The notes beneath the pieces were generated by a model. That model did no database searches and was not told the DNA's origin. It saw only the letters and a list, made by a program, of their open reading frames with translations. A DNA stretch of 39,267 nt from Acidobacteriota bacterium. GTDB taxonomy: Bacteria; Acidobacteriota; Vicinamibacteria; Vicinamibacterales; CAVVIG01. The DNA is taken from contig JAHFUJ010000009.1 of the NCBI GenBank assembly GCA_023265105.1, positions 1 through 39,267 on the forward strand, given 5' to 3'. Each line of letters opens with the position of its first letter. The stretch's first letter is position 1. Positions 4,383 to 22,388 of the stretch are shown piece after piece. A program made the position numbers and the translations under genes.

Positions 4383-4388
4383 CCGTCG

Positions 4389-4808
4389 TTACTCCTCCAC
4401 TGCGAACCGGCGCGCGATCTCGGCCGGAATCGAGACGGCCTTCATCGGCTCGCCCGGCCGCGTGCTGCTGACGCAGACGACCGTCAGCGTGCCGGTGGCA
4501 ATCTTCACGTCGTCGCGCGTGAGCTCGCAGGTGTAGCGGATCGTCTTGTCACTCATCGCGGCTATGCGAATCGACACGTCGAACTCGTCTTCGAACCGGA
4601 GCGGATGATGGTAGTCGAAGGCCGCGGACATGCGCGGGAAGCCGACAGCCTTGTCAGCCGGTGCGATACTCAGCCCGGCCTCCCGCCACAGTGCGTGCTC
4701 GGCCTCTTCCATGTAGCGGAAGTACCAGCTGAAATGGACGATGCCGGCCGAATCGACCTCGTAGAACTGGACGCGACGTCGGATCCGGTACCCGGAACGG
4801 GCGGTCAT
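4389..4808 (-). CDS. Acyl-CoA/4-hydroxybenzoyl-CoA-type hotdog thioesterase
   Basis: This 139-aa protein is a full-length single hotdog domain of the YbgC/FadM/4-hydroxybenzoyl-CoA thioesterase type. The signature near the N-terminus, YEVDSAGIVHFSWYFRYMEE, places the catalytic Asp in the usual position (D-x-x-G-x-V). The middle of the protein (FDYHHPLRFEDEFDV) matches the second conserved block. Members hydrolyse acyl- or aryl-CoA, or acyl-carrier-protein, thioesters in the cytoplasm. The gene starts 6 bp after the radical SAM gene and ends 6 bp before the halogenase-like gene, so the three are almost certainly one transcript. The context suggests release of a modified acyl or aryl product rather than a housekeeping role; that is inference. 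Confidence 0.88.
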   Translation of the reverse strand: MTARSGYRIRRRVQFYEVDSAGIVHFSWYFRYMEEAEHALWREAGLSIAPADKAVGFPRMSAAFDYHHPLRFEDEFDVSIRIAAMSDKTIRYTCELTRDDVKIATGTLTVVCVSSTRPGEPMKAVSIPAEIARRFAVEE

Positions 4809-4814
4809 CGGCGA

Positions 4815-6149
4815 TCAGGTGTAGCGGATTCCCGCATGCTCGCGTTTGAAGAAGCGCACGAGCAGCGTGTCGACCCGCAACAGGGCGTCGCGAGTAAATC
4901 GGACCATCTCCGCATTGGCGACGTCCAGATGGCCGTCGGCCGCGAGCGACTCGAGCGCCGGCTTGAATCGTTCGAGAATGTTCACGCCGTACTTCTCGCT
5001 GAAGTAGGCCGGTCGAACCCACCCTCGCTTGAGCTGCAGCACCAGCTCACGAATCATCCGCTCTTCATCGGTCGGCTTGTACGCGCGGCTGAGCGGCAAC
5101 TCGTCGCGGCGGATGGCTGCGCTGTAGGTCTCCCACGTGTCGAGATTCTGCATGTGGACCCCGTTCACGTGGCCGAACGACGCGACGCCAAGCCCCGCGA
5201 GGTCTGCCCCCTGCCACACCCGATCCGTGTAGAGAAACCGCGAGCGTGCCGGGTCCTTGACCGCGGTGTACGCACTGGCGACGTGATAGCCGTCTGCCTC
5301 GAGGGTCGCAAACGCCTCCTGTACCCAGCGCCGCTTCGTGGGCCAGGTCGCGACCGTCTGCGCGAACTGGCCCGTCCCTTTCAGCAGGTCGCGGCTGATC
5401 GTCGTGTTGAACGGCAGCTCCATCTGGTAGATGGTCACGCTGTCCGGCTGCAACGCGAGCGTCTTCTCGACGCAGTCGCGCCAGTTCTCCTCGGTTTCAC
5501 CGAGCATGCCGGCAATCAGATCGATGTTGATTTGAGGAAAGTCGATCGACCGGGCGTAGTCGTAGGAGCGATAGACCTCGGGCGAGCGATGCGCGCGGCC
5601 GTTCAGCGTCAGGATCTCGTCGTTGAAGTTCTCGACGCCGAGGCTCAGCCGCGTCACGCCCATGCTTCGGATCCCGGCGAGCTTGGCCTCGGTCAGCGTC
5701 CCGGGCTCGCACTCGAACGTGATCTCCTGGGCATCGTCCCAGGGCGTGACCGCCGTGAGCCGCTTGACGAGACCATCGAGCTGCCTGGTCGAGAGAAACG
5801 AGGGCGTTCCGCCGCCGAAGTAAACGAAGTCGATCGGCCGGCCGGAGAGCGCCGGCATTCGCGCAGTGAGCTCCCACTCGCGGCCCAGCACGTCGAGATA
5901 GTCGACGACTTCCTCGGCGTTCTTGTCGGTGTAGACGCGGAAATAGCAGAAATGGCAGCGTTTCCGGCAGAAAGGAATGTGCAGATACATCCCGAGTGGA
6001 ACAGCCGTCGCTGGGGCACTGCGGAGCGCGGGCAGTGCATCACACTGCACGGCGTCGGCGTTCCACACGGAGAACGGGGGATAGTTGGCGACGAAATAGC
6101 TCCCCACTTCTGTCTGTTCGACGACCGCCAGCGATCTTCCTTCCACCAC
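4815..6149 (-). CDS. HemN/HemW-like radical SAM protein
   Basis: A radical SAM enzyme of about 444 aa from the coproporphyrinogen-oxidase-like family. The [4Fe-4S] motif is CRKRCHFCYF (C61, C65, C68; CX3CX2C), preceded by MYLHIPF as in HemN and HemW. FVYFGGGTPSFL follows, then the SAM-binding strands and a HemN C-terminal domain (EERMIRELVLQLKRGW). I chose GTG at 6149 (or 6146), because TEVGSYFVANYPPFSVW just downstream is a conserved N-terminal block, and sequence upstream is not conserved-looking. A -10-like TATAGT at 6165-6160 would put transcription start near the start codon, so the mRNA may be leaderless. CYF after the third Cys differs from the CxC common in true HemN, so haem synthesis is doubtful. 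It heads the operon with a thioesterase and a halogenase-like enzyme. Confidence 0.85.
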   Translation of the reverse strand: MVEGRSLAVVEQTEVGSYFVANYPPFSVWNADAVQCDALPALRSAPATAVPLGMYLHIPFCRKRCHFCYFRVYTDKNAEEVVDYLDVLGREWELTARMPALSGRPIDFVYFGGGTPSFLSTRQLDGLVKRLTAVTPWDDAQEITFECEPGTLTEAKLAGIRSMGVTRLSLGVENFNDEILTLNGRAHRSPEVYRSYDYARSIDFPQINIDLIAGMLGETEENWRDCVEKTLALQPDSVTIYQMELPFNTTISRDLLKGTGQFAQTVATWPTKRRWVQEAFATLEADGYHVASAYTAVKDPARSRFLYTDRVWQGADLAGLGVASFGHVNGVHMQNLDTWETYSAAIRRDELPLSRAYKPTDEERMIRELVLQLKRGWVRPAYFSEKYGVNILERFKPALESLAADGHLDVANAEMVRFTRDALLRVDTLLVRFFKREHAGIRYT

Positions 6150-6305
6150 AATGCGGTCAACTATACCGCAGCGAACCTGATTGACACGTTGCGGCCGCGC
6201 CTGCAATAGTCCCGGCAGTCGGCAGTCGGCAGCCCTCTGCGTAACTGCCCACTGCGCACTGTCGTATATTGATGGTTCGGCGCACGGCGCCCTCATCACC
6301 AGACC
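6150..6305. promoter_or_regulatory. Divergent promoter region with 7-bp-periodic inverted repeat
   Basis: This 156-bp spacer separates the minus-strand radical SAM operon from the plus-strand membrane-protein gene. On the minus strand there is TATAGT (6165-6160) with GTGTCA 16 bp upstream. On the plus strand there is TATATT (6265-6270). Between them is an imperfect dyad: left arm 6213-6232 (CGGCAGT repeated in 7-bp steps), loop 6233-6243, right arm 6244-6264 (ACTGCCC ACTGCGC ACTGTCG). The right arm directly abuts the plus-strand -10-like box. The dyad could be an operator, a hairpin or only expanded tandem repeats; base positions are seen, function is inferred. Confidence 0.45.
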
Positions 6306-6788
6306 ATGACCATGACTCCACACGCGAGGACAAGACGTATGGGTTGGATGCTCTTCGTCGCCGGTGCCGTGCTTTCGTGGGGCGCATACGGCGCCTTCCT
6401 CTATCTGGGACAGACACAGCTCGGCAATCCACTGAAGGCGTTGCTCTGCGTCGGCGTCGCCTACTTCCTGATCGGCGTGCTCGTCCCCGTCGCCAGTCTG
6501 AGCGCCCAGGGGAGCCTCTCGAACTTCAACTCGGCGGGGCTCATCACCGCGACGATCGCCGGCGCGCTCGGCGCCGCCGGCGCCGCCTGCATCATCTACG
6601 CATTCCGCTACGGTGGGCTGCCAATCTACGTGATGCCGCTCGTCTTCGGCGGCGCACCGATCGTCAACGTGCTGGTGTCGATGGCGATCCATCCACCCAG
6701 GGCCGCGATCAACCCGCTGCTGTTCGTCGGCTTCGCGCTGGCGTCGGTCGGTGCAGGAATGGTGCTGTACTACAGGCCGACGGCGTAA
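6306..6788 (+). CDS. Small multi-pass membrane protein, DMT/EamA-like
   Basis: A 160-aa very hydrophobic protein with about five predicted membrane helices: roughly residues 12-33, 43-62, 76-98, 103-122 and 135-155. Glycine- and alanine-rich helices such as ITATIAGALGAAGAACIIYAF and a short polar N-terminus resemble half of a drug/metabolite transporter (EamA) fold, which usually has ten helices in two repeats. Half-size members act as dimers. No substrate can be read from the sequence. The start may be ATG at 6306 or the later ATG at 6339. The gene stands alone on the plus strand behind a TATATT box and ends in a GGATCGG tandem repeat before the cyclase gene. The DMT relation is by helix pattern, not by a clear motif. 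Confidence 0.7.
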   Translation: MTMTPHARTRRMGWMLFVAGAVLSWGAYGAFLYLGQTQLGNPLKALLCVGVAYFLIGVLVPVASLSAQGSLSNFNSAGLITATIAGALGAAGAACIIYAFRYGGLPIYVMPLVFGGAPIVNVLVSMAIHPPRAAINPLLFVGFALASVGAGMVLYYRPTA

Positions 6789-6816
6789 GGATCGGGGATC
6801 GGGGATCGGGGATCCC
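6789..6816. repeat. Intergenic 7-bp tandem repeat (GGATCGG)
   Basis: Three exact GGATCGG units (6789-6795, 6796-6802, 6803-6809) and a fourth variant, GGATCCC, start immediately after the stop codon of the membrane-protein gene. A similar array with another 7-bp unit lies at 32635-32662. Confidence 0.85.
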
Positions 6817-6859
6817 GGCAGCATGTCGGCCCGTGGCGTTCAATGAGGCGGAGGCACGT

Positions 6860-7858
6860 ATGAAAGCGTCGTCGGTTGGAGTGGCGGTGGCCCTCGGCGC
6901 GGCGGGACTGGCGGGCGCCTGGTGGTTGTCCACCGTGCATGCGCAGCAGGTGCCGAGGCACGAGCCGGTGAAGAAGGCGCAGATCGAGCAGTGGAAGAAG
7001 GAGTTGTCCAACTGGGGCCGCTGGGGCGCGAACGACGAGCGCGGCGCGCTGAACCTCATCACCCCGGCCAAGCGGAAGCAAGCCGCCGGTCTGGTAAGAG
7101 AAGGCTTCTCGGTCTCGATGGCGAGCGACGCCGACACGGAGAAGTCGATCGATAATCCGAATCCGTACGAGCATCGGATGCTGGCCCTCGGTTCCGACTA
7201 CATGGGCGTCGCCATGCACGGGTGGGCGCATACGCACCTCGACTCGCTGGCGCACGTCAACTACGACGGTGTGTTCTACAACGGCTACAAGCCGGACCCG
7301 CAAGTGGTCGAGCGGCAGAACGGCCACGCGAAAAATTCGATCATCAACTTCAAGGACGGGATCCTGACCCGCGGGATCCTGATCGACATACCGCGGCTGA
7401 AGGGCGTGCCGTATCTCGAGCCGGGTACGCCGATCTACATCGAGGACATTGAAGCGTGGGAGAAGAAAGCCGGCGTCAGGGTCTCGGCCGGCGATGCGCT
7501 CTTCGTCCGCACCGGCGTGTGGCCGTATCGCCGGAAGTTTGGTCCCTACGTGCGCGGCCGCGCCGGGAAAGACGCCGGTCTCGACGCCACGGTGATCCCC
7601 TGGCTGAGACAGCGCGACATCGCGGTCCTCGGCAGCGATCATCCCCAGGGGGTGAACCCCTCTGCGACCGAAATGCCCAACGCCGTGCACGATTTCGCGC
7701 TCGTCAGCCTCGGCGTCCCGTTGCTCGACAACTGCGACCTCGAGGCGCTCGCGGACGCGGCGGCCGCGAGGAATCGCTGGGAATTCATGTTCCAGACCGC
7801 GCCACTTCCGGTGCGCGGAGCCACCGGGTCGCCGGTCAATCCGATCGCCACGTTCTGA
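6860..7858 (+). CDS. Cyclase family protein (metal-dependent hydrolase), exported
   Basis: A 332-aa protein of the cyclase/kynurenine-formamidase-like superfamily, which uses a divalent metal to open amide or lactone bonds. The ATG at 6860 is supported by a GGCGGAGG ribosome site just upstream and by the hydrophobic export signal that follows (residues 5-28, ending VHAQQ). The metal-binding block is HGWAHTHLDSLAH (residues 120-132), with H126, D128 and H132 in the HxDxxxH arrangement. WGANDERGALNLIT (55-68) is a conserved N-terminal block of the long form. The gene lies 12 bp before an exported aldolase gene with its own ribosome site, so the two are probably one operon. The substrate is unknown; a periplasmic location is unusual for formamidases and is inferred from the signal. 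Confidence 0.87.
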   Translation: MKASSVGVAVALGAAGLAGAWWLSTVHAQQVPRHEPVKKAQIEQWKKELSNWGRWGANDERGALNLITPAKRKQAAGLVREGFSVSMASDADTEKSIDNPNPYEHRMLALGSDYMGVAMHGWAHTHLDSLAHVNYDGVFYNGYKPDPQVVERQNGHAKNSIINFKDGILTRGILIDIPRLKGVPYLEPGTPIYIEDIEAWEKKAGVRVSAGDALFVRTGVWPYRRKFGPYVRGRAGKDAGLDATVIPWLRQRDIAVLGSDHPQGVNPSATEMPNAVHDFALVSLGVPLLDNCDLEALADAAAARNRWEFMFQTAPLPVRGATGSPVNPIATF

Positions 7859-7870
7859 CAGGAGCAACGC

Positions 7871-8866
7871 ATGTTGACTGATTCGCGAAACGCCCGTCAC
7901 CCTCGTGGGACCCGGACGCCAGCGCTCGCCGGCGGACTCGCGGCCGCCCTCGCCCTGTTCGTGCTGTGGTCGGGTGTCCCGTCCGCGCAGCAGCAGCGCC
8001 TCCATCTCAACCCGGTGATCGCGAAGCTCATCGAGGGGAAGACCATCTACGGCCTGAACACCGGCGACCTGTCGCTCGCTTACGCGAAGGAAGTCGCGCG
8101 CGCGCCGGTCGATTTCGTCTATGCCGATCTCGAGCACAACCCGCTCGACTTTCCCGCGCTGCAGATCTTCCTGATGGGCATGACCGACAAGGCCGCGGTG
8201 ATCCAGAAGGGCAATCTCCAGCCGAATGTCGCGTTGTTCGCGCGGTTTCCACCCGAGGCGGACGAGTCGCAGTGGGTGGTGAAGCAGGCGCTCGACATCG
8301 GGCTGCACGGGGTGATCTTCAACGGCGTAGACACCCCGGAGCAGGCGTTGTTCGCAGTGCGGACGATGCGGTATCCGCAGATGAGGGAGTCGAAGTTCCG
8401 CGAGCCGGCCGGCTTGCGGGGTGCCGCCGCGGGCAACGCCACCTGGATGTGGGGCGTGAGCACCGACGAGTACGAACGGCACGCCGACGTCTGGCCGCTC
8501 AATCCCGATGGCGATCTGCTGGCGACGATGATGGTCGAGTCGGTCGAGGGGCTGAAGAATGTGGACAGGATTGCGGCGGTGCCAGGGGTCGGCGCGCTCT
8601 TTCCTGGCGCCGGCAATGACTTGAGTCATTCGCTCGGCGTCCGGCAGGACTCCCTGGAGCTCGAGGCCGCGTTCCAGCAGATCCTGAGGGCGTGCAAGGC
8701 GCACAAGGTCGGCTGCGCGATTACCGCGACGAGCCCTAACGACGTCGCGAAACGCGTCAGGGAGGGCTGGAACATCATTCGTTCCACCGTGCCCGCCATT
8801 ACGGCGGGACGGGCACTGCTCGGGGAGCCGCCCGCCGCACCGCCGTCACGGACCCCGGCCCTCTAA
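7871..8866 (+). CDS. HpcH/HpaI-type aldolase/citrate lyase family protein, exported
   Basis: A 331-aa protein with a basic N-terminus and a hydrophobic signal (ALAGGLAAALALFVLWS, ending SAQQ), followed by a class II HpaI-like aldolase barrel. Visible active-site blocks: YADLEHNPLDF, with the conserved E-H pair; ALFARFP at the expected arginine; MMVESVEGLKN, with the metal-binding glutamate; and FPGAGNDLS, with the second acid ligand. The family cleaves or forms C-C bonds of 2-keto-3-hydroxy acids with a divalent metal. An AGGAG site lies 7 bp before the ATG. HpaI aldolases are normally cytosolic, so the export signal is odd. Together with the upstream cyclase it could process an extracellular lactone or keto-acid, which is inference. 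Confidence 0.88.
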   Translation: MLTDSRNARHPRGTRTPALAGGLAAALALFVLWSGVPSAQQQRLHLNPVIAKLIEGKTIYGLNTGDLSLAYAKEVARAPVDFVYADLEHNPLDFPALQIFLMGMTDKAAVIQKGNLQPNVALFARFPPEADESQWVVKQALDIGLHGVIFNGVDTPEQALFAVRTMRYPQMRESKFREPAGLRGAAAGNATWMWGVSTDEYERHADVWPLNPDGDLLATMMVESVEGLKNVDRIAAVPGVGALFPGAGNDLSHSLGVRQDSLELEAAFQQILRACKAHKVGCAITATSPNDVAKRVREGWNIIRSTVPAITAGRALLGEPPAAPPSRTPAL

Positions 8867-12384: not shown

Positions 12385-12798
12385 TCAGGAGACGATCTGT
12401 ATCGATTGATGGCGATGCCCGCGACGCACTCGATACGTCTCGAAGTCGTTCCGATCGATCGTGAACACCCGCCGGGTGCGAAGCGCCTCGGCGGCAGTCA
12501 CGAGCGACGCGTCCGCCAGATCCATTGGACGATCCGCGTACAACTCCATGAGCTCGAACGCTCGCGTCAGTGCAGGTCGGTCAAAGAACCACACCAACAG
12601 TCCGCCGCTTTCGATGAACTCCCTCAGTCGGTCTGACCCGATGCTCGCCGGGCCCAGGATGTGAAACGCTTCGGTGAGCACAGGCGTCGTGGTCATGATC
12701 GGCTCCCGAAGCCCCTTCAGGGCATTCACACACCTGGCGTGCTGCCTGTCCTGGGGATCGAACAGGGCGACGAGTGGCCCCGTGTCCACGAGGGTCAT
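12385..12798 (-). CDS. PIN-domain ribonuclease toxin, VapC-like
   Basis: A 137-aa PIN-domain protein. The acidic active site is visible: D5 in MTLVDTGPLV, E43 in LTEAFHIL, D93/D96 in PMDLADASLV and D115 in FTIDRNDF. VapC toxins are Mg2+-dependent RNases that cut tRNA or rRNA and are held inactive by a VapB partner. The gene overlaps the stop of the upstream antitoxin gene by 4 bp (ATGA), which fits translational coupling. It sits between unrelated genes and so looks like an inserted cassette. Confidence 0.9.
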   Translation of the reverse strand: MTLVDTGPLVALFDPQDRQHARCVNALKGLREPIMTTTPVLTEAFHILGPASIGSDRLREFIESGGLLVWFFDRPALTRAFELMELYADRPMDLADASLVTAAEALRTRRVFTIDRNDFETYRVRRGHRHQSIQIVS

Positions 12799-13058
12799 CG
12801 CCGAAGCTTCTTGCGAAGTGCCGTGGCCACGCCGCGGCGCGTATCCGTCGACGGCGCGACGGCGTAGCCGCCGGGGCCGAGATCGAGCTGCTGATAGAGG
12901 TCGTAGGGCCTTCGCCCCGATTCTTCCGCGACGCGTTGCTTCAAGGATTGCAGTCCCTGCTTCAGCGCCTCCGAAATCGGCAACCCTGTGGCATCGCGAA
13001 TCTGCTGGAGCACGGCCTCCGCCTCGTCGTCAAGTCTCACCGTGCGAGTCGCCACCAT
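12795..13058 (-). CDS. Ribbon-helix-helix antitoxin, VapB-like
   Basis: An 87-aa protein that starts with a ribbon-helix-helix DNA-binding segment (RTVRLDDEAEAVLQQI, then GLPISEALKQGL) and ends in a basic, probably flexible tail that would wrap the toxin. It is the antitoxin of the overlapping PIN-domain gene and very likely represses the shared promoter just upstream. The start ATG at 13058 is directly preceded by AGAGGTGG. Confidence 0.85.
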   Translation of the reverse strand: MVATRTVRLDDEAEAVLQQIRDATGLPISEALKQGLQSLKQRVAEESGRRPYDLYQQLDLGPGGYAVAPSTDTRRGVATALRKKLRR

Positions 13059-13105
13059 CCACCTCTTGTATTACTCAGTGTATTACGTACGTCGTCTGTG
13101 GTCAA
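13059..13105 (-). promoter_or_regulatory. sigma70-like promoter with GTAATAC direct repeat for vapBC
   Basis: On the minus strand TTGACC (13105-13100) and TACACT (13082-13077) are separated by exactly 17 bp. The -10 box is embedded in two GTAATAC half-sites (GTAATACACTGAGTAATAC), a likely ribbon-helix-helix operator. The palindrome ACGTACGT lies in the spacer. Autoregulation is inferred from family knowledge. Confidence 0.6.
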
Positions 13106-13917
13106 CGTGCGCGCGGCTCGTAGCCGGCTTCTTTCCAGATCGCTTCGGCTTCGGGTGACGCGAGGTACTGGAGAAGCGCCTTCGCGGCTACCGGGTCGCT
13201 CGCGTGGGTGGAGACGAATCCCACAACCGGAACGGGCGCACAGATCGTCCGCGGCAGAACCCCGACGATGTCGTATTTGTCCTTCTCGGGAAGCATGTCG
13301 CTGAGCATGAGCAGGCCGATGTCGATGTCTCCGTTTTCCAGCCGCTTGGAAGTCTTGGTGGCGTTGTTGGTGGCCGCCGGGGAAATGCCCTGAGCGCCAG
13401 GGCCAAGTTCGACCTGACTCTTCGTGGCAACCTGGTCGGCGATCCCAAGCTTGTTCAGCGCTTCCCAGGGTCCCTGCCCTGCGACGGTAAAGTCGGGATC
13501 CTCATAGCCGATGCTCTTCGCCGCCAGGAGCGCTTTCTTGAACGCGGCGGGCGTGGAGATGTCGGGCTTCGGCCGGCCCTTTGGCACGCCCACCGCCGTG
13601 AGAATGCTCGCAACCAGTGTGGCGCTGCCGGGAACGATGGTTCCTGAGGCGATCGCTCCCGGGAACGGCGCGATGATCAGCGACACGTCGAGGCCCTGGC
13701 CCTTGGCAACCATCCGTCTGGTCTCCGCACCATTGCCGTACGTCACTTTCACTTTGTGACCCGTTTTCGCCTCGAAGCTCGCGACAATCTTCGCGGTGGG
13801 CGCACGCATGGGACCGACAGCCAGCAGAGTGATCTCACCCTGCGCGCGCGCGCTCGTCCAACCGCCAAGCACGAGCACGATCGCGAAAATCACTGAAGCA
13901 GTCTTCGTGTGTTTCAT
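13102..13917 (-). CDS. ModA-like periplasmic substrate-binding protein
   Basis: A 271-aa exported protein; the ATG at 13917 gives a clean signal peptide (KHTKTASVIFAIVLVLGG, ending SARAQ). The mature part is a type-2 periplasmic binding fold like the molybdate-binding ModA family: ITLLAVGPMRAPTAKIVASF at the N-terminus, AKGQGLDVSLIIAP, and the C-terminal AKALLQYLASPEAEAIWKEAGYEP. No ABC transporter permease or ATPase gene is nearby, so it may act as a binding or scavenging protein, or the transporter is elsewhere. It starts 18 bp after the upstream gene and is the last gene of a five-gene run of exported proteins. Ligand unknown. Confidence 0.82.
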   Translation of the reverse strand: MKHTKTASVIFAIVLVLGGWTSARAQGEITLLAVGPMRAPTAKIVASFEAKTGHKVKVTYGNGAETRRMVAKGQGLDVSLIIAPFPGAIASGTIVPGSATLVASILTAVGVPKGRPKPDISTPAAFKKALLAAKSIGYEDPDFTVAGQGPWEALNKLGIADQVATKSQVELGPGAQGISPAATNNATKTSKRLENGDIDIGLLMLSDMLPEKDKYDIVGVLPRTICAPVPVVGFVSTHASDPVAAKALLQYLASPEAEAIWKEAGYEPRAR

Positions 13918-13935
13918 GGCTGGCTCCGACCGCAA

Positions 13936-14802
13936 TCACTGAGCGCGCCTGTAGTGCTCCGTCGTGGTGCGAGGCGCGACCTTCATTGTTTTCATCGTCT
14001 TGATGTACTCGGGGTACGTGGTTTCCGCGCCACCCAACGCGGACTCGGGAGGTATTCCGTATTCGGTCGCGAAGTCGTGGAGGATGTCATTCTTGCCAGG
14101 CAAGAAACTTGGTACTTTGCCCGCCGGAATGATGGTTCCGTCTGGAGTGATCTCACAAGGGAAGGGAGGTATCACCTGGTTGGGATCGAAGACCCAACTG
14201 GATTCGCGAATGTACGGTTCCGTCAAATAAGCGGGATCGTTGATGATAAAGATGAACGTCAGAATATTTCCGTATCGATGGACTCGCGTCGTCACCGTGG
14301 CCCTGTCACTCTTGGGAACTCCCGTGCGGGTCAGAATCGCTTCCTTGAGATGGTCGGTCGTGTAGACCAATGTGTTGCGTTCCCAGCGCCCGGTCGAAAA
14401 TCCCGACCATTTGTGAGGCGCGTTCGCCGACGGGTGTGGCCGGCCATCCATGTAAATCACCTGTTCAGGCTCCTGCCAGGCCACGTGCAGGCGTAAACCA
14501 ACAGGCCGCCGTGTTTCGTTGTCCAGCTCGGTGGTAATGCGCAGCTGCGACACGGAGACACGCAGCCCCATGTCGATGGGGTGCGGTCTGCACAAATTCT
14601 CAGGAAGATCGAGTTGTTCCGGATGCCAGCTCTCGGCCCTCAGGCGCCCCGCTTCATTGAGTGGGATTCCAGTGTAGTCGCCAATATCCATGGCCTCGTT
14701 ATAAACCCTGGGCGACCACTCGCCGGTCAGATCGACCTGGGCGCTGGCCAGCCGGCACGGCAGCAGCACCAGCACGAGGAGGAGAAACAGAGTGAGTCTC
14801 AT
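13936..14802 (-). CDS. Exported protein of unknown function (paralogue of next upstream gene)
   Basis: A 288-aa secreted protein. I chose the ATG at 14802, because it overlaps the stop of the upstream gene as ATGA and gives a signal peptide at once (MRLTLFLLLVLVLLPCRLASAQ). The mature part opens with DLTGEWSPRVYNEAMDIGDY, followed by TGIPLNEAGRLRAESW. It contains IYMDGRPHPSANAP, then GFSTGRWERNTLVYTTDHLK and DPAYLTEPYIRESSWVF. I recognise this as a conserved secreted family of Acidobacteria and Proteobacteria, but no function is known to me. The upstream gene shares the plan (DLTGYWVSVV, YTKIPLNPEGR, W.GYSA, DPQYLVEP), so the two are distant paralogues. I see no catalytic motif. Confidence 0.8.
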   Translation of the reverse strand: MRLTLFLLLVLVLLPCRLASAQVDLTGEWSPRVYNEAMDIGDYTGIPLNEAGRLRAESWHPEQLDLPENLCRPHPIDMGLRVSVSQLRITTELDNETRRPVGLRLHVAWQEPEQVIYMDGRPHPSANAPHKWSGFSTGRWERNTLVYTTDHLKEAILTRTGVPKSDRATVTTRVHRYGNILTFIFIINDPAYLTEPYIRESSWVFDPNQVIPPFPCEITPDGTIIPAGKVPSFLPGKNDILHDFATEYGIPPESALGGAETTYPEYIKTMKTMKVAPRTTTEHYRRAQ

Positions 14803-15650
14803 CGTGGTTCGTCGACGCGACATGGCGTGGGATCCCACCCGGAACTGTCCGGAAGTTTCTTGAAATGCGCGTGGGTGACAAGCGGTTCTACGAGGTATTG
14901 CGGATCGGTGACAACCGCGGTCACTGCAAGCCAGGTGTTGTGAGTATAGGGATCCGAAAAAGTATCCACGTATTCTTCAAGGACCGCGTTGCCACTGTAA
15001 GGCACGCCGTTCTTCTGCAGATATCCCGGGCGCATACGGGTGGTAACCACCTTCAGATAGTCGGCTTGCTTCCGCTGTGGCGTTGCGATGACCAGTCTGC
15101 CCGCCGAATCCTGCACAGGCCCGCCCTGGCCGTCACGCCGGTCCCTGGGTTCGTCTCCGCCCCATACGGCAGCCGAGTATCCCTGCCACGCCGGCGCGTC
15201 ATTCGCGCGCGGCGACCCATCGAAATGGAACAGGCGAGTCTGGGTTCCGGAATCCGTATCTACACGCAGGGTGTTGTCGTCCTGCCAATAAATGTGCAGC
15301 CGCCCTGGCACTTGCAGGAGAGCGGCAGCGCCGTATGACTTGCACTCGTTGCCGCTTGCTCGATCCTTGGCTGGATCCCACGCGCCTGCGACTGTACGAC
15401 CCTCGGGGTTGAGCGGAATCTTCGTGTAATCGCCTTTGTCCGGCACAAGCATTCGGTAACGCCACAGTTCGGTTACCACCGATACCCAATACCCCGTTAA
15501 ATCGTCCGGGGCGGCGGCACGCGCCGTCCTTGGGCCTGCACCTTGGGCATCACCTGGCCGTTGCGCAGCGAGATCAGCCGAAAAGAGGAGCGACAACGCT
15601 GCGGCGAACCGCAATACTCGATGTGTTCGTGTTCGCATCGGCGTCGTCAT
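14799..15650 (-). CDS. Exported protein of unknown function (paralogue of next downstream gene)
   Basis: A 283-aa secreted protein. The ATG at 15650 overlaps the stop of the DUF6152 gene (ATGA) and yields a signal peptide (RFAAALSLLFSADLAAQ). The mature part has DLTGYWVSVVTELWRYRM, GDYTKIPLNPEGRTVAGAW, RLHIYWQDDNTLRVDTDSG, FHFDGSPRANDAPAWQGYSA, and DPQYLVEPLVTHAHF near the end. The same blocks occur in the next gene, though this one has a longer insert rich in Asp, Arg and Gly around WGGDEPRDRRDG. Function unknown; the paired arrangement suggests a heteromeric or sequential role, which is inference. Confidence 0.8.
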   Translation of the reverse strand: MTTPMRTRTHRVLRFAAALSLLFSADLAAQRPGDAQGAGPRTARAAAPDDLTGYWVSVVTELWRYRMLVPDKGDYTKIPLNPEGRTVAGAWDPAKDRASGNECKSYGAAALLQVPGRLHIYWQDDNTLRVDTDSGTQTRLFHFDGSPRANDAPAWQGYSAAVWGGDEPRDRRDGQGGPVQDSAGRLVIATPQRKQADYLKVVTTRMRPGYLQKNGVPYSGNAVLEEYVDTFSDPYTHNTWLAVTAVVTDPQYLVEPLVTHAHFKKLPDSSGWDPTPCRVDEPR

Positions 15651-16051
15651 CTCTCGGCTGCGGGGCCCTGCCACTTGAAGCCGTCCGATGGACGTTCCAC
15701 GGTCTCGAGCAGGAGTCTATGGTCCTCCGCAATGCGCCCCGGCTGCCCCGACACGATGACGTGATCCCCGGGCCGGAGCCTGTTTGCCGTGAGACCTTGT
15801 TCGGCGAGTTGCCCAGGTGTGGCACCTTCGATCACCCAGATCTGCATCTCCCCTTTTTCGTCCGGGGCCTCCACCTTTATAAAGGAGTGCGGGTTGCGCC
15901 AGATGAGCTCCTTTAACGTCCCTTCGATCTTTACGGACTTGCCGTGGATGTACGTTGCCGTAGCCGAATGATGCGCGAGGGCCATGCCACCGCCCAACGC
16001 CAGAACAGCCAGAGTGTTCAATGAAATAAAGACCAGCCTTCTATATTTCAT
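15647..16051 (-). CDS. DUF6152 family exported protein
   Basis: A 134-aa protein with a signal peptide (LVFISLNTLAVLALGGGMALA) followed at once by HHSATATY, the hallmark start of mature DUF6152 proteins. VKIEGTLKELIWRNPHSFIK and the later LRPGDHVIVSGQPGR fit the small OB-like fold expected for this family. The ATG at 16051 has an AGGAG ribosome site 5 bp upstream. Its stop overlaps the start of the next gene. DUF6152 proteins recur near the same secreted partners in other bacteria, but their job is unknown. Confidence 0.85.
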   Translation of the reverse strand: MKYRRLVFISLNTLAVLALGGGMALAHHSATATYIHGKSVKIEGTLKELIWRNPHSFIKVEAPDEKGEMQIWVIEGATPGQLAEQGLTANRLRPGDHVIVSGQPGRIAEDHRLLLETVERPSDGFKWQGPAAER

Positions 16052-16058
16052 AAAACTC

Positions 16059-17045
16059 CTACTCACTTCCGCGGGATCCGCGAGTGTCGGGTTTCATGCT
16101 GAGACTGTTGTACGCTGCCTCGATAAACATATCCGTCGTCCAATTGCCGGTACCGCTGCCATAGATCGGATCGTAGTCCAGCGTTGGTTTCGCCGCCTTC
16201 ACCTGATCGAGAGTCATGCCCCTGTTGATCATGTCCTGGAGGCGATCCCGGACGACGGTGACCATCTGCTGATAAATATCCAAATCCGCCACGTCACAAA
16301 GCCTTCCATGACCGGGGACGAGCATTGTGCCCGCTTCCACGTGGTCGGCCGGAACGGCCATTTGTCTCAGGCGGTTCAATCCCTCGAGCACTCCCTGAAG
16401 ACTTCCTCCGCTCTTCACATCGATGATCGGGTATTCGGTCGGATCGAAAATATCGCCCGTGCTGATGACGTCGGACCGCCGAAACAATACGATGCTGTTG
16501 CCGTCCGTGGTCGCCGGTTGATGAAATATCTGGACCGCTTCACCATTGAAGTACAGGTTCTTCTGGGGCACCGAGTACGTGTCGTTTGGCCAGGCTCTTT
16601 CCGGTATCGAAGGCTTGCGGTTGCTGTCGGTCATCCTGTCCAGAATCGTGTTGAAAGCAATGATAAAAACGCTGGCCTGCGCGGCTCGGTTGATGTCCAG
16701 GGGCCGGCCGATCTTCGCGAAGTTCTCGTTGCCGCCTATGTGATCGCTTCTCTCGCCCGTATTAATAATGTAGGTGATTTGACGATTCGATAAGGTCCGG
16801 ATCGCCGCCAGGACTTTATCGGTCATTGTTGCCACACCCGTGTCGACCAGAAGGACACCGTCCTTACCGACTTGGACGGTAATGTTGCCGCCCGCTCCTG
16901 CCAGCATGCTGATGTTCCCTTGCACGGGCAACAGCTCCAGCTCGGGACTCCTGGATTTCTGCTCCTGCGGATAGACGACATGCGCCGAGGCGAATAGCCC
17001 AATGACAATGAGGGCCGAGGCGATGCACAACGGCGAAATTCTCAT
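16059..17045 (-). CDS. MBL-fold protein with degenerate zinc site, exported
   Basis: A 328-aa exported protein (signal around SPLCIASALIVIGLFASAH) with the metallo-beta-lactamase fold: GGNITVQVGKDGVLLVDTG, then INTGERSDHIGGNENF, DVISTGDIF and TMLVPGHGRLCD. Numbered from the ATG at 17045, the normal HxHxDH motif reads G97-x-R99-x-D101-H102, and the later His of the first zinc site is a Thr (PATTDG, T179). The second-site ligands D101, H102 and H246, and the bridging D198, are kept. So zinc site 1 appears lost and site 2 intact. It may be a mono-zinc enzyme, a binding protein or a dead paralogue. It is the first gene of the five-gene operon, behind a strong promoter. Confidence 0.85.
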   Translation of the reverse strand: MRISPLCIASALIVIGLFASAHVVYPQEQKSRSPELELLPVQGNISMLAGAGGNITVQVGKDGVLLVDTGVATMTDKVLAAIRTLSNRQITYIINTGERSDHIGGNENFAKIGRPLDINRAAQASVFIIAFNTILDRMTDSNRKPSIPERAWPNDTYSVPQKNLYFNGEAVQIFHQPATTDGNSIVLFRRSDVISTGDIFDPTEYPIIDVKSGGSLQGVLEGLNRLRQMAVPADHVEAGTMLVPGHGRLCDVADLDIYQQMVTVVRDRLQDMINRGMTLDQVKAAKPTLDYDPIYGSGTGNWTTDMFIEAAYNSLSMKPDTRGSRGSE

Positions 17046-17056
17046 TACCACTCCTT

Positions 17057-17092
17057 GTGGCGGATGCTACGGAAGCGCCTCACGGATGTCAA
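17057..17092 (-). promoter_or_regulatory. Near-consensus sigma70 promoter of the five-gene exported-protein operon
   Basis: On the minus strand TTGACA (17092-17087), a 17-bp spacer and TAGCAT (17069-17064) precede the MBL-fold gene, whose ATG at 17045 has an AAGGAG ribosome site. The -35 box is a perfect match to consensus. Transcription would begin near 17057. Confidence 0.65.
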
Positions 17093-17218: not shown

Positions 17219-19261
17219 CTAGTGGCTAAACGGATTTGAAGCGCGCCGCACGATGCCGAAGCGGCGATGCGGCGTGCCGAGCGCAAAACCGGTCGTCACA
17301 CGAACATCCCAACGAACTCCGTAAACATTGCTGTACGCCGCTCCGAACCGCACCGATCCGAGTATGCGGCTGTAGATCGGTCGCTCAAATGCCAGTCCAC
17401 CCGTGAACCACCACGCGGGATTCGCCTCGTCTTTGGTCACTGCCGCATCCAGCTCATCGATCTGCCACGTGGCTCCGCCGTAGGCGCTCAGGAGATTCGA
17501 CAACGTCATCTCGTATCGCCCCGCAATCCCGTCAAACCACCCCGCCCGGAACAAGTCGTTGCTGTCGAGCAACGCATCGATCCCGATACGACCGGCCAAG
17601 GGGAGTCGCTGGCCGCGCCCGAACGGGATCGAGGAGATCTCCATCGCGCCGCCGAGCGAATAGCGTAGAGACTGCTCCGTGGCCAGGTGCTGCACCGCCG
17701 AACAGGACATTTTTCGGCAATCGTATTTCTTCGTCGGCGTGAACGCGGCCCCGGCCCGCAGCGCAAACGCTGGGTAGTACCCCTGCTTGAGTACCAGGTA
17801 GGGCTTCATGAAATCATCATGTCCCACGATCTGGCTCGCGGCGCAGTTGGCCGTTGGCTCACTGCACTTCGCGATCGTCTCGGTCGGTGCCTGCCTCAAG
17901 ACGTAGCAGTCTGGTCGACCCTCGACGACCTTGCAGTACCCGGCGTCTCGGGCATCCTCGTCATCTGTGCCATTCAGCTTCGTCACTCGGTCAGCCCGCC
18001 ACCAGGGCCGGACGATGCCCTCTGCGTCGGCTCGGCCACTCGCCATCGCCGCCTCGAATGCGCGAAATGCGCTATCGGTCCCGCCGGTCGCGTCTCGAAT
18101 GCCCCACGCCTTGCCAACATCTCGGTAAAGGTTCGTATCGATTCCAGGCACAAACCGCCCATCGTGGTCGATGTCGGGCGCGGTGGCATGTTTCCCCTGT
18201 TCCACCAGCGCCCACAACGGAAGCGTGACTGGCGGCACCGACGGGACGAACGTGCCGAACTCGTTGTTCGGCGCCCACAAACCGTGACCCGCGCCAACAA
18301 CACGACGGACGATCCCCCCGAGTTTGTCCACCTCGACGAACATGTGCTCGCTGTCGTGCAGGTGTTCGTCGAGTCCACCCTCGTCGATGGGGTAGTAGAA
18401 CCAGTACTCGAACACCCACGATCCGGGCACGCTGAGTTCCCTGAAATAGACGGACGCCGGTGCTGATGGAAACAGCTCGCGATACCGAACATAGGTTTGC
18501 TTGAGTGCCCGGCTCCGGTCGGTGCCCCTCTTCCTGTCGGCCGAAAGGCGATCGCGAAAATCCTTCGCCGCGCCGGCGTTGAGACGATCCCAAATCTGGA
18601 AATCCTCGGGCACGATGGCTTCTTGACGCGAGAGCTGGAGCACGGGTGCGTAGAGCCGTGCGTCGGCCTCGACGGCGTAAAACGTCCACTGCAACCCCTG
18701 GACGTTGCCTGGAGCCCCAGCGGCCCGGGTTTTCATCACATCAAGAAACTGCTGATCGAAGTTGTCGAGCCGTTGGGAATTCATCGCGCATGGGACGGGC
18801 GCGTCGCCTTCAATCACGACGGGAGGCTCCAGGCGTTGGTCTGAGGCAAGCTCCAGAATGTCCCGGGTCAGGTCGATACGCTGGGCTGGACGTTCTCGAA
18901 AGACCACCGTGGCGCTTGTCCCGAACCTGTTGATCTTGAACGTTTGGACCTCCGCTTTCTCTGACGCCACGGGCACAATCCGAAACCGCCACTGCTGACC
19001 ACGTGGACCAAACAGATACGGCACTGCCTTGTCCCTTGCGATGGTGCGTGCAGCGGTGGCGAGCGCCACCATGTCCTTCGCAACGGCGACGCCGACAAAA
19101 TCGGTCCCCACGCAGTGCGCCAGCGGCGTCACCTGGGCAACGGCGACACCTGGCATGAGCAACCCGGCCAGGCCGAGCACGCCACACACGACAAATACAC
19201 GCGCGATGCAATCTCGAGCGCTCCGCTCCTGGCGTTGTTGACACATAGCATCACTTCTCAT
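17219..19261 (-). CDS. Exported 680-aa protein with VPS62-like motif and C-terminal barrel
   Basis: A 680-aa protein of unknown function. The ATG at 19261 has GAAGGTGG just upstream; a signal peptide follows (VFVVCGVLGLAGLLMPGVAVAQ). Around residues 285-311 EYWFYYPIDEGGLDEHLHDS leads into EHMFVEVD, resembling the VPS62-like fold, in which HxxDxEH surrounds a probable metal site. The middle holds several Cys pairs (CSEPTANC, CRKMSC). The last 170 or so residues (LRYSLGGAMEISSIPFG to VRVTTGFALG) are strand-rich and resemble an outer-membrane barrel. It follows the frameshifted lipase-like gene by 31 bp, so they are probably one transcript. I cannot assign a function; an outer-membrane role is inference. 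Confidence 0.72.
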   Translation of the reverse strand: MRSDAMCQQRQERSARDCIARVFVVCGVLGLAGLLMPGVAVAQVTPLAHCVGTDFVGVAVAKDMVALATAARTIARDKAVPYLFGPRGQQWRFRIVPVASEKAEVQTFKINRFGTSATVVFRERPAQRIDLTRDILELASDQRLEPPVVIEGDAPVPCAMNSQRLDNFDQQFLDVMKTRAAGAPGNVQGLQWTFYAVEADARLYAPVLQLSRQEAIVPEDFQIWDRLNAGAAKDFRDRLSADRKRGTDRSRALKQTYVRYRELFPSAPASVYFRELSVPGSWVFEYWFYYPIDEGGLDEHLHDSEHMFVEVDKLGGIVRRVVGAGHGLWAPNNEFGTFVPSVPPVTLPLWALVEQGKHATAPDIDHDGRFVPGIDTNLYRDVGKAWGIRDATGGTDSAFRAFEAAMASGRADAEGIVRPWWRADRVTKLNGTDDEDARDAGYCKVVEGRPDCYVLRQAPTETIAKCSEPTANCAASQIVGHDDFMKPYLVLKQGYYPAFALRAGAAFTPTKKYDCRKMSCSAVQHLATEQSLRYSLGGAMEISSIPFGRGQRLPLAGRIGIDALLDSNDLFRAGWFDGIAGRYEMTLSNLLSAYGGATWQIDELDAAVTKDEANPAWWFTGGLAFERPIYSRILGSVRFGAAYSNVYGVRWDVRVTTGFALGTPHRRFGIVRRASNPFSH

Positions 19262-19292
19262 GATCCACCTTCGTCGTTCGTGCGGCATACCG

Positions 19293-20380
19293 TCAGGGAA
19301 GGTCTGCGAGCACGTAGCGCGCGATGGCCTCGAACAGCGCCACGCGCGGATAGTGGTTCTTGTCGATCCAGTCCCTCGCGAACCTGGCGTTCGCGTCCAG
19401 CTGCTTCGGGGTCAGATTCGAATCGGGCTTCGGAACGGCAGCGCCACGGCCCAGTGATCCGCTCGAGCCATACCCAAATACGTACCACCGGGCACGAGTG
19501 CGTCCTCGTGAATCACCTGACTATCCTGTTCACGCGAAAACACAGAGAGCTGACTCCAGAAGCCACTCAGCACTCTCGAGGTCGTCTCTGGATCGCTCAC
19601 CGCGGCGATCGAGTAGGCGTGGAAGTGGTCCGGCCGCTGAAAACGCGCCATCGCGTCTACCCGATCCGGCCGCCGAAGACTGTCGAGCCCGCCACCGTCC
19701 GCGACATCGCACGGACCGAGACGAGTGTCCCTGGCGAAATCGAGCAAGTGACGCGGCACGGCCTCGGGCAGTCGGGAACCGAGCACCGTGCCTGCGACCG
19801 TCACAACCGCCGCGATCGCTTGACGCGCGGTTGCGTCAGAGGCGATTGCCTCGAGCAGATCCGATGCGCCCTTGCTATAGCCGACGGCAATGTACTGCGG
19901 CTGGCCAGCGCCCCAGTGCTTCGCCAGGTAGTCAGCGATCTGACCGGCTTTGTACTTGACGCTTCCAAGGCCGCTGACCGCAATGTACTCGACGTCGACG
20001 TGGTGCTCGGACCGCAGATGACGTATGGCATCTTCGAACGGCATCGCTTGTGCCTCGACACACTGGCCGAAGATGCCCGGAACCACGGCGATTCGGTATT
20101 TGCCCAGATTGGACCATTCGGGCAGCGCACCTGCCGGGCCGGTCGGTCGGAAGTATCGGTCGCAGTATCCCCATTCGCCGTGTTGCGAAGTGTGAGCGAG
20201 CACCGTACAGAACAGCTGACCGAACCGCTGGCTGGATTGAACGTCGCCCCCCTGGACCGGCAGCGAACGCAGCAGGCCGACCGGCTGCGTGACGGACGTC
20301 ACATGCGCGCATGCCCCTGTCACGACATAGGCGAGCGCGAGTACCGTGTCGCGGATCCGACCGAACGGGCCCCCGATCAT
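19293..20380 (-). pseudogene. Lipase-like alpha/beta hydrolase with apparent 1-bp frameshift
   Basis: The main frame (20380 down to 19412, 322 aa) is an alpha/beta hydrolase: IAVVPGIFGQC (97-107), nucleophile elbow GYSKG with S169, acid region IHEDALVPGG (D293), and histidine in ARADHWAV (H309). It then stops abruptly at FRSPIRI. In another frame the protein continues plausibly as KPDSNLTPKQLDANARFARD, then IARYVLADLP, to a stop at 19293. Total length is 1088 bp, one base short of whole codons, which fits a single missing base near 19430. The gene overlaps the upstream gene by 4 bp (ATGA). A leader or lipoprotein signal (LALAYVVTGACA) is present. The break could be a real mutation, a programmed shift or an assembly error; the catalytic residues precede it. 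Confidence 0.7.
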
Positions 20381-21921
20381 CGGAACCTCGCCAGCAGCGA
20401 GTCCAAATCGTAGCTCACACCGACGTTCGCGCGAACGATCTTCTCGTTAACAAGGTCGGAACGATTCGCCACGGTGAGCGATAACGGAATCTTCATCCCC
20501 GTACCGTTCGTCGGAATCGTCAGCCTGAACTGTCCCAGTTTGATGTCGCCCCTGGTGTTGACCAGCAGCATACCGGTCTCGAGATCGATCGGGTCTTTCA
20601 GCATGTGGACGAACTTGAATGTCACCGTAAATGTGAAACGTCCAATGCCTGTCGCCGTGCCGAACGGAATGTCGAGCTGCCCCGCCAACTCCGTCGACTG
20701 CGGATCACCGAGGGTCACGCGGTCGGTGATCGATTTCTGCGGATAGCTCACACCCGCGTTCATGGTCATCGTCGCTTTGGGCGTATTCACCGCGAACACC
20801 AACCGCCCCGTCGTCAACGACACGCCGGCAGGGCCTCGATCACTGAGAAGTTCAACGGCCACGATGGTCCCCGACACTGCCTTCGCGAGCTCGCTGGGAT
20901 GCGTGGCCATCCAACCCGTAAAGTCGTCCGCCAATCGCTGCACAGCGTAGAACGGATCGCCGACGTCTGGAGCCGCCTGAGCGTTCGGCTCGTCTGGCGA
21001 TGGTTCAGGCAAAGCTCCGGTCGGTTTGTCGGGGAGAGGGATGTCTCGAAGCTGGTCATTCAACACATCACACAGCGGATTCCTCTGGCAGTAGTCTGCG
21101 ACGTCGTGAGTGCGCAGACTGGCGTACCTTGCCGACAGGAGGGCATTCGTCTCGGCCACCCAACGCGTCAGTTGGTCATTGAACGGCGCAGGGAGGGTGC
21201 GGAAACGCATCTGGACCGCAGGCGTGATTCGGTTGACGGCACTCTGCCCGCTCGCCGTGGTCCAAAAGGCGCTCAAGTGATCGGCATGGTCGTTGTACAG
21301 CTCTCCGCGAGCCGTCCATGCCGACAGCTGTTGAACGTCTCCGCTGAGACGCGGGTCCTTACCCTCGGGTATACCCCGACTTGTATCGAACGAGGCGCTC
21401 AGGGTGAAGTTCGAGAGTCGCTCGTAGAAACGATCGGGCTTGCCGGTCGCCGTCGCGAGCAAACCGTGCTTGTCCACGACCTTCAGGATGCCCGCGACGT
21501 TGGCTCTGAAGGTCATTGTGTTGCCGGAGCGATGCTTCGTCACCGCCCCGTTTTCGAGCGCCAGGCTCAAGAACGCAGGCACCGCGGCGCTCGATACGGC
21601 ACTGGTCGTTCCCGCCGTCCCCGATGCACTCCCTTTCTGTTCGTCGACGCGGGAGTCTTCATAGAGATTGGACGTCGCTTGTTTCAGGGCCATCGCCAAC
21701 ACCACGAGCCGCACATCGGCCAGCCCCATCTCTTTGGGCTCGGCGAGTGTTGGCGCCGTCGAACCGCCACCTTTCTGCATCGCGCGACACTCCACGAGCT
21801 GATACAACGAGGTCTTGGATGCGCACGGATCGGCCGGTGTGGACTGCGCACTCGCCACGCGAGCCGCTCCGCCGACGAGCACGGCATACACGGCAACGAT
21901 CCGCACACGATGATGTGCCAT
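20377..21921 (-). CDS. Exported 514-aa protein of unknown function
   Basis: A 514-aa protein starting at ATG 21921 with a signal peptide (VRIVAVYAVLVGGAARVASAQ). The first 80 residues hold a Cys pair (PCASKTSLYQLVEC). A coiled or helical middle part follows, and from about residue 370 the sequence alternates in strands (VSLTTGRLVFAVNT, TMTMNAGVSYPQ, LDIPFGTATGIGRFTFTVTF), ending in ANVGVSYDLDSLLARFR. This resembles a small outer-membrane barrel or a beta-sandwich. I do not recognise the family. It is the first gene of the three-gene cluster and overlaps the hydrolase start by 4 bp, so its product and the hydrolase are probably made in fixed ratio. Confidence 0.7.
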   Translation of the reverse strand: MAHHRVRIVAVYAVLVGGAARVASAQSTPADPCASKTSLYQLVECRAMQKGGGSTAPTLAEPKEMGLADVRLVVLAMALKQATSNLYEDSRVDEQKGSASGTAGTTSAVSSAAVPAFLSLALENGAVTKHRSGNTMTFRANVAGILKVVDKHGLLATATGKPDRFYERLSNFTLSASFDTSRGIPEGKDPRLSGDVQQLSAWTARGELYNDHADHLSAFWTTASGQSAVNRITPAVQMRFRTLPAPFNDQLTRWVAETNALLSARYASLRTHDVADYCQRNPLCDVLNDQLRDIPLPDKPTGALPEPSPDEPNAQAAPDVGDPFYAVQRLADDFTGWMATHPSELAKAVSGTIVAVELLSDRGPAGVSLTTGRLVFAVNTPKATMTMNAGVSYPQKSITDRVTLGDPQSTELAGQLDIPFGTATGIGRFTFTVTFKFVHMLKDPIDLETGMLLVNTRGDIKLGQFRLTIPTNGTGMKIPLSLTVANRSDLVNEKIVRANVGVSYDLDSLLARFR

Positions 21922-22388
21922 CAGAGGGCTCCATCGAATCAGCCTTGCGTTTGGTGCTGGCCAACGGGTGGTTCCGCGGCAGCGCGGAATCTTACAAAGG
22001 AAACAGACCACGCGAAAGAGGAATGTTTCGCGCTCGACCAGCCAAACCTGATCAAGAGCCCAGCCAACGCTGCCCACACCTGCCAGTCGACGACGATGCT
22101 GATGGTGCCACCGTCGTTGGCTCCACAGTCGTGTTGACCAGGAGCCGCTGGCCGTCGGCGGTCACGTCGAAGTCAGGGGCCGTGTGTTGCGGATGACGGC
22201 TCTCCAGGCGTATTGTCACGGCCAGCCAGCGCCCCACGGGAGCCGACAGGACCAATAGTTACGTCCCAGAATTACCTTGTTTACGCGCCCATGTGCCGGG
22301 TGTAGGATGTGCGGCTGAGGCTAGTGGATCTCTCTACTTTTGCTGCTGATGCGACCGCGTGCGGGTTTCAAGACGAGGTGAACGCTTC
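21922..22388. other. Divergent spacer between the three-gene cluster and the Mo-hydroxylase operon
   Basis: These 467 bp carry no complete gene. The middle contains a decayed C-terminal TolB/kinase fragment (listed separately). A GAGG ribosome site for the Mo-hydroxylase small subunit lies at 22375-22378. I could not identify a convincing promoter for either operon; TTGTTT at about 22278 has no well-spaced -10 box. Confidence 0.5.
22040..22255 (-). pseudogene. Remnant of a kinase/TolB-propeller C-terminus
   Basis: On the minus strand, APDFDVTADGQRLLVNTTVE resembles the final propeller blade of TolB-like kinase fusions (consensus-like YDVSPDGQRFLVN). After TVE the match jumps one frame and continues as NDGGTISIVVDWQ, resembling the usual ITVVLNW ending. 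No kinase domain or upstream blades are present. So this is a short, frameshifted relic of a gene like those at both window ends. Confidence 0.55.

Follow-up and report, generated by a model that had tools for sequence, protein, structure and literature searches.

The window analysed here is a stretch of 39,267 nucleotides from an Acidobacteriota genome (assembly GCA_023265105.1, contig JAHFUJ010000009.1), in which five open reading frames (ORFs) on the minus strand form a single operon running from 17.05 to 13.10 kb. The first gene (16059-17051) encodes an exported protein of the metallo-beta-lactamase (MBL) fold (PF00753, E 2.4e-12). It is followed by a gene for a DUF6152 protein (15647-16066; PF19649, E 3e-23), two genes for exported proteins termed unkA (14799-15674) and unkB (13936-14838), and an accessory gene for a ModA-like solute-binding protein (13102-13935; SBP_bac_11, PF13531, E 4.5e-34). 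ATGA overlaps join DUF6152 to unkA (15650-15647) and unkA to unkB (14802-14799), and the other two junctions are short gaps. All five proteins have N-termini that resemble signal peptides, as judged by eye and without a predictor. The initial annotation had described a five-gene exported operon with MBL, DUF6152 and ModA-like members and two paralogous unknowns, and each of these points is borne out; ten unkA sequences are 30-34% identical to the unkB of the window. The operon itself carries less weight than two other results: the family to which unkA and unkB belong is very large and has no name, and DUF6152 has an N-terminal histidine signature.

Neither unkA nor unkB has a Pfam or NCBIfam match, and both are members of a very large unnamed family. 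With unkB as the query, 111 matching places were found in the window's own genome. Thirteen unkB paralogues, which make up profile A3, share the stretch W-x-G-x-S-x-G-x-W-E-G-D-T-L, from which the label 'WEGDT' was coined here; unkB is a divergent member. At E <= 0.001 the family occupies at least 150 places in this 5 Mb genome (150 of 252 candidates were scored). None of the 13 paralogues is assigned to a dedicated Pfam or NCBIfam family, although a single member has one weak match to DUF3471 (E 0.0017), and the PDB holds no sequence match. Among the papers listed in literature searches there was nothing on the family, and none on acidobacterial lipocalins with TonB-dependent proteins. The spread of the family is patchy. 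Of 149 Acidobacteriota genomes, 14 have WEGDT genes; a nearly complete genome from a different family has 35 matches, and the genes also occur on nine plasmid records, eight of which are from sphingomonads. Copy numbers from these multi-genome searches are lower bounds, with 16 to 31 candidates scored per genome. One of the plasmids, from Sphingobium TomTYG65, was considered as a link to tomatine breakdown; this was dropped, as the part of the source consulted names the strain and none of these genes (PMC10653915). The family is likely to have a calycin-like barrel fold, as the core of the unkB model, itself of low confidence (mean pLDDT 52), resembles fatty-acid-binding proteins (FABP), retinol-binding proteins and NanoLuc with Z of 8-9.

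DUF6152 is the constant partner of the WEGDT family. The two are found in the same 14 of the 149 genomes, although seven of these come from a single family, so that the independent events number fewer than 14. There are 73 copies of DUF6152 in the window's genome, all of which were compared, and 57 of these have a WEGDT gene within 1 kb. A single protein at locus L004 (868-1887) has an N-terminal DUF6152, with its His-His pair kept, fused to a WEGDT domain. The literature searched yielded no paper on DUF6152, DUF6644 or PF19649.

All 73 copies have His-His directly after a signal-peptidase-like site of the AxA type, the cleavage site being predicted. The residue at -1 is Ala in 72 copies and Gly in one, and that at -3 is Ala, Val or Leu in 70. 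In the window the predicted mature protein begins HHSATATY, with the His codon at 15973. When the 73 mature parts are aligned, invariance is limited to four columns, namely His1, His2, Pro28 and His29. The last of these, within NPH in the window, offers a second conserved potential ligand that is internal and not at position 2, and it is present in every copy. No Met column is conserved, thus an internal ligand set of the CusF/SilF type, which includes Met, was not found. The His-His pair is also kept outside this comparison: in 12/12 copies from loci L021-L029 and the window, in 30/30 of another set, to which this genome contributes three, and in 23 of the 24 sequences of a further set, where the exception is a fragment and where all seven sphingomonad plasmid copies have it. 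One copy in the set of 24 has HH and lacks PH.

The mature DUF6152 of the window was folded from 12 sequences, giving a model with a pLDDT of 87 and a pTM of 0.80 that has strands at 14-25, 30-37, 43-49, 71-79 and 86-94 and a helix at 53-58. It matches OB folds, including PriB and SSB (Z 8-9) and Cu(I)-CusF (Z 7.5, 2.7 A over 70 residues); Z values in this range indicate a shared common fold and say nothing on function. The model is thus a confident one of a small OB fold, and the signal-peptide-like start of DUF6152 would place it in the periplasm. Folds of the LPMO type (immunoglobulin-like beta-sandwich) and of the CopC type are absent from its fold-match lists, an absence that does not exclude them.

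Metal binding by DUF6152 at its N-terminus is probable, because a mature N-terminal His with an invariant internal His is the mark of the N-terminal-histidine metalloproteins. The metal would most likely be copper or nickel. In the part of PMC12537917 consulted, DUF4198, DUF6702, Ang-1 and Ang-2, which were found through a His after the signal peptide, are binders of Ni or Cu. The 'signal-strapping' procedure described there rejected candidates with a second ligand at position 2, and the paper's main text does not name DUF6152.

The initial annotation had proposed looking for conserved gene order in other genomes, and the gene order does recur in nearby Acidobacteriota. MBL-DUF6152-unkA-unkB is present at L021 to L025 and at L028, with a contig end cutting the MBL gene in L021 and L028. 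The ModA-like gene comes next in L021, L023, L024 and L025, is a fragment in L022 and is on the opposite strand in L028. L026 and L027 are MBL-unkA-unkB with no DUF6152 match in between, and L029 begins inside unkA. One scan of 84,980 species genomes, which detects close relatives only, found nine relatives of unkB, all in metagenome-assembled genomes of Acidobacteria. The MBL-unkA-unkB arrangement recurs in about 30 loci. Among the loci examined, an MBL gene is within 3.5 kb of unkA in 29 of 33 matches and unkB is near it in 27, always on the same strand, whereas DUF6152 is near 19 (16 on the same strand) and a ModA-like gene near seven (six on the same strand). The core is therefore MBL-unkA-unkB, with DUF6152 as a frequent member and the ModA-like gene as an accessory of close relatives. 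The idea that all five genes serve to recognise or process a single compound in the periplasm is supported in part, as far as the exported, conserved operon and the barrels beside it in several relatives are concerned, but the ModA-like protein, which had been counted as a member, is not part of its core.

The ModA-like protein scores 47.3 bits against the molybdate family TIGR01256, below the cut-off of 62.5. No ModB or ModC partner was recognised by eye among the window's ORFs, and a scan of ten neighbours gave none either. As a candidate sensor of the system it was rejected on this sub-threshold score and on its occurrence near so few unkA matches. Further ModA-like paralogues are near the module in L025 (4917-5666, 26% identity) and L028 (5317-6183, 49% identity).

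The MBL protein has an altered metal site. At the zinc-ligand positions usual in the superfamily, with an ordinary aligned MBL as reference, the HxHxDH motif has become xxRxDH in the window protein (NTGERSDH) and in those six close orthologues whose motif could be read. Thr replaces the third Zn1 histidine in 9/9 (PATTDG in the window), and the Zn2 ligands Asp, His, Asp and His are kept in this group. In a wider set, DH is present in 26/27, GD in 29/30 and the PGH-type His in 29/30, with the full HxHxDH retained in four of 27 readable copies. Judged from these residues, the MBL protein of the window may work as an enzyme with a single metal or may serve for binding.

Other genes are associated with the module. 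DUF6644 proteins are small membrane proteins with one near-invariant histidine and weak similarity to DUF2214. There are 15 matches in the genome, nine of them over the cut-off, and 11 of the 15 are within 1 kb of DUF6152 or WEGDT, where a fraction of about 0.13 would be expected by chance. Loci L155 and L156 have clusters of one or two WEGDT genes, a barrel gene, two or three further WEGDT genes, DUF6152 and two DUF6644 genes. Genes for c-type cytochromes also adjoin the module at some loci.

A search for a co-occurring TonB receptor had also been proposed. A TonB-type barrel is adjacent to the module in several relatives (L059, L060, L064, L069 and L075; 7/85 neighbours) and is within the canonical clusters L155, L156, L157, L159 and L160, but the window itself has no adjacent barrel. 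The genes immediately downstream of the operon, at 12385-13058, encode a PIN-domain protein and a small RHH-like protein, which together form a VapBC-like toxin-antitoxin pair. This pair occupies the place where L021 carries a TonB-type barrel. The L021 barrel gene (3420-6746), directly after the ModA-like gene, is split into two ORFs that correspond to the halves of PF25183, through either a frameshift or a sequencing error.

Two loci from two genera of one family, L067 (7680-13972) and L075 (4351-9473), have unkB-MBL-unkA between genes for an FAA hydrolase and gentisate 1,2-dioxygenase and a gene for GTP cyclohydrolase I; the dioxygenase is above the NCBIfam cut-off in both. Because gentisate dioxygenase genes surround these two copies, aromatic compounds are suggested as their substrates, with nothing certain following for the window copy.

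The lower GC content at third codon positions (GC3) that had been remarked upon is confirmed, with a mean of 0.705 for the five operon genes (0.633-0.768) against 0.809 for the 21 other genes of the window (Mann-Whitney p 0.0004). The border is blurred, with the ModA-like gene at 0.768 and three upstream genes (G689, G322 and G566) at 0.72-0.74. These upstream genes, at 17219-22077, encode products of 689, 322 and 566 amino acids, the 689-residue product being without a Pfam match. Acquisition of the operon by transfer, as the initial annotation supposed, is suggested by the GC3 contrast, by the patchy spread of unkA and by the GC3 of the module in relatives, which mostly follows that of their own genes; these signs go no further than suggestion. 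A neighbour gene of L021 was searched for in the window's genome as a transfer test and had no match, which is uninformative either way. The near-consensus promoter said to head the operon is present as a site, TTGACA-17-TAGCAT (17064-17092, minus strand), with 10/12 consensus matches. However, there are two such sites in the stretch against a mean of 1.3 in shuffles, which is within chance, and the site was therefore rejected as the mark of a special operon.

Taken together, the operon may be one among many copies of an envelope module whose proteins are all exported. Such a module would capture and process compounds that are small and perhaps aromatic, and DUF6152 would be its copper or nickel protein. 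This is the interpretation that we favour, tentatively and with slightly less than even confidence. An outer-membrane barrel would import the small compound, and the calycin-like unkA and unkB would bind it in the periplasm. DUF6152, with Cu or Ni held by its N-terminal His, would act on the compound or pass on electrons or metal, and the MBL protein, reduced to its Zn2 site, would bind or hydrolyse a product.

Several results weigh against this interpretation. Nothing in the window names a substrate, and of the loci examined just two have gentisate genes identified nearby. The calycin-like fold comes from a model of low pLDDT, on which Foldseek gave no match below 0.001. In addition, unkA is present in just 6 of 297 Acidobacteriota genomes, in eight or fewer copies each. 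Barrels of PF25183 are not enriched near DUF6152 or WEGDT, with 9/49 within 1 kb (chance 0.13) and 18/49 within 5 kb (chance 0.40). This census scored 65 of 144 candidates and kept 49 of 79 rows, several rows being pieces of one protein. The TonB-type barrel was rejected as a fixed part of the module on the lack of genome-wide enrichment and is retained as a frequent, not obligatory, neighbour.

A more specific form of this interpretation is that DUF6152 represents a novel fold class among the N-terminal-histidine metalloenzymes, an OB-fold copper oxidant present in over 70 copies in one genome, each with its own calycin-like substrate binder, and that together these are a periplasmic small-molecule oxidation system of soil Acidobacteriota and sphingomonads. 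This is unlikely. If true, the system would parallel the many-copy LPMOs with which fungi act on polymers.

The alternative that survives best, although it is doubtful, is metal acquisition or trafficking. Here the barrel would import a metal chelate, the calycin-like proteins would hold the chelator, DUF6152 would take the ion and the DUF6644 pair would move it across the inner membrane, as in the CopC/CopD arrangement. One His is kept in 24 of the 25 DUF6644-like proteins compared, and these proteins adjoin DUF6152. According to the part of PMC12537917 consulted, Ni is bound tightly by both DUF4198 and DUF6702, which resemble metal carriers, and TonB receptors adjoin DUF4198; likewise, the OB-fold proteins CusF and SilF are periplasmic Cu(I)/Ag(I) metal chaperones in the consulted part of PMC10656224. 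However, 73 copies of one carrier in a 5 Mb genome are hard to explain, and gentisate dioxygenase and other catabolic genes are present around some copies.

It is quite unlikely that this is an ordinary exported operon for uptake and hydrolysis, pairing an MBL hydrolase with a solute-binding protein and acquired by transfer, in which the His-His of DUF6152 is structural or a matter of processing and binds no metal. The SBP_bac_11 and MBL family assignments and the low GC3 accord with it, but the ModA-like gene is missing from most copies, the MBL protein lacks the Zn1 histidines, and His1, His2 and His29 are absolutely conserved in DUF6152 copies that share little else. Haem-based periplasmic electron transfer, with the DUF6152 histidines binding haem or delivering it to nearby cytochromes, is very improbable: the operon of L063 is unkB-MBL-DUF6152-unkA-DUF6644-DUF6644-cytochrome c' (last three genes at 6577-8036) and reaction-centre-type cytochrome c genes are near DUF6152 in L156 and L160, but cytochromes are at few loci only and a His at a free N-terminus is a sign of metal chelation rather than of haem.

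A family without a Pfam or NCBIfam name accounts for 150 or more genes in a single 5 Mb genome, and its constant partner has a very clear sequence sign of a metal site at the mature N-terminus. Should the site prove real, DUF6152, DUF6644 and the unnamed family would gain their first testable function, and there would be a route to learning what uncultured soil Acidobacteriota eat.

Parts of the module can be set against known systems. The best NCBIfam match of the MBL protein is to the quinoprotein relay zinc metallohydrolases (TIGR04558/TIGR04559, E 4.7e-16), from which it differs in scoring 59 bits against a cut-off of 280 and in the absence of the Zn1 histidines. In SusC/SusD-type uptake loci, numerous paralogous barrels of the outer membrane go with exported partners, and a given set is probably specific for its own substrate. 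The present module is similar in its many barrels with exported partners, but no SusD was seen, the partners are modelled as calycin-like and OB-fold proteins, and barrel adjacency is not enriched genome-wide. The CopC/CopD copper pair consists of a periplasmic N-terminal-His protein and a small polytopic membrane protein. DUF6152 similarly adjoins the small membrane protein DUF6644, although DUF6644 proteins have no CopD match in Pfam and only the weak similarity to DUF2214.

With CusF and SilF, DUF6152 shares a small periplasmic OB fold, as modelled. Those proteins bind metal through internal His, Met and Trp (for SilF, in the consulted part of PMC10656224; for CusF, in part as generally understood), whereas DUF6152 has no conserved Met. 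In the same part of that 2023 paper, SilF and CusF are called the sole OB-fold proteins with metal binding as their only function. The N-terminal-histidine metalloproteins, so far as the consulted part of PMC12537917 describes them, are beta-sandwiches, whereas DUF6152 is modelled as an OB fold and has His at positions 1 and 2. It resembles them in the His at its predicted cleavage-exposed N-terminus and in the internal His29, comparable to His18 of DUF4198 and to His28 and His32 of DUF6702. If the site is real, DUF6152 would add an OB-fold class to these metalloproteins.

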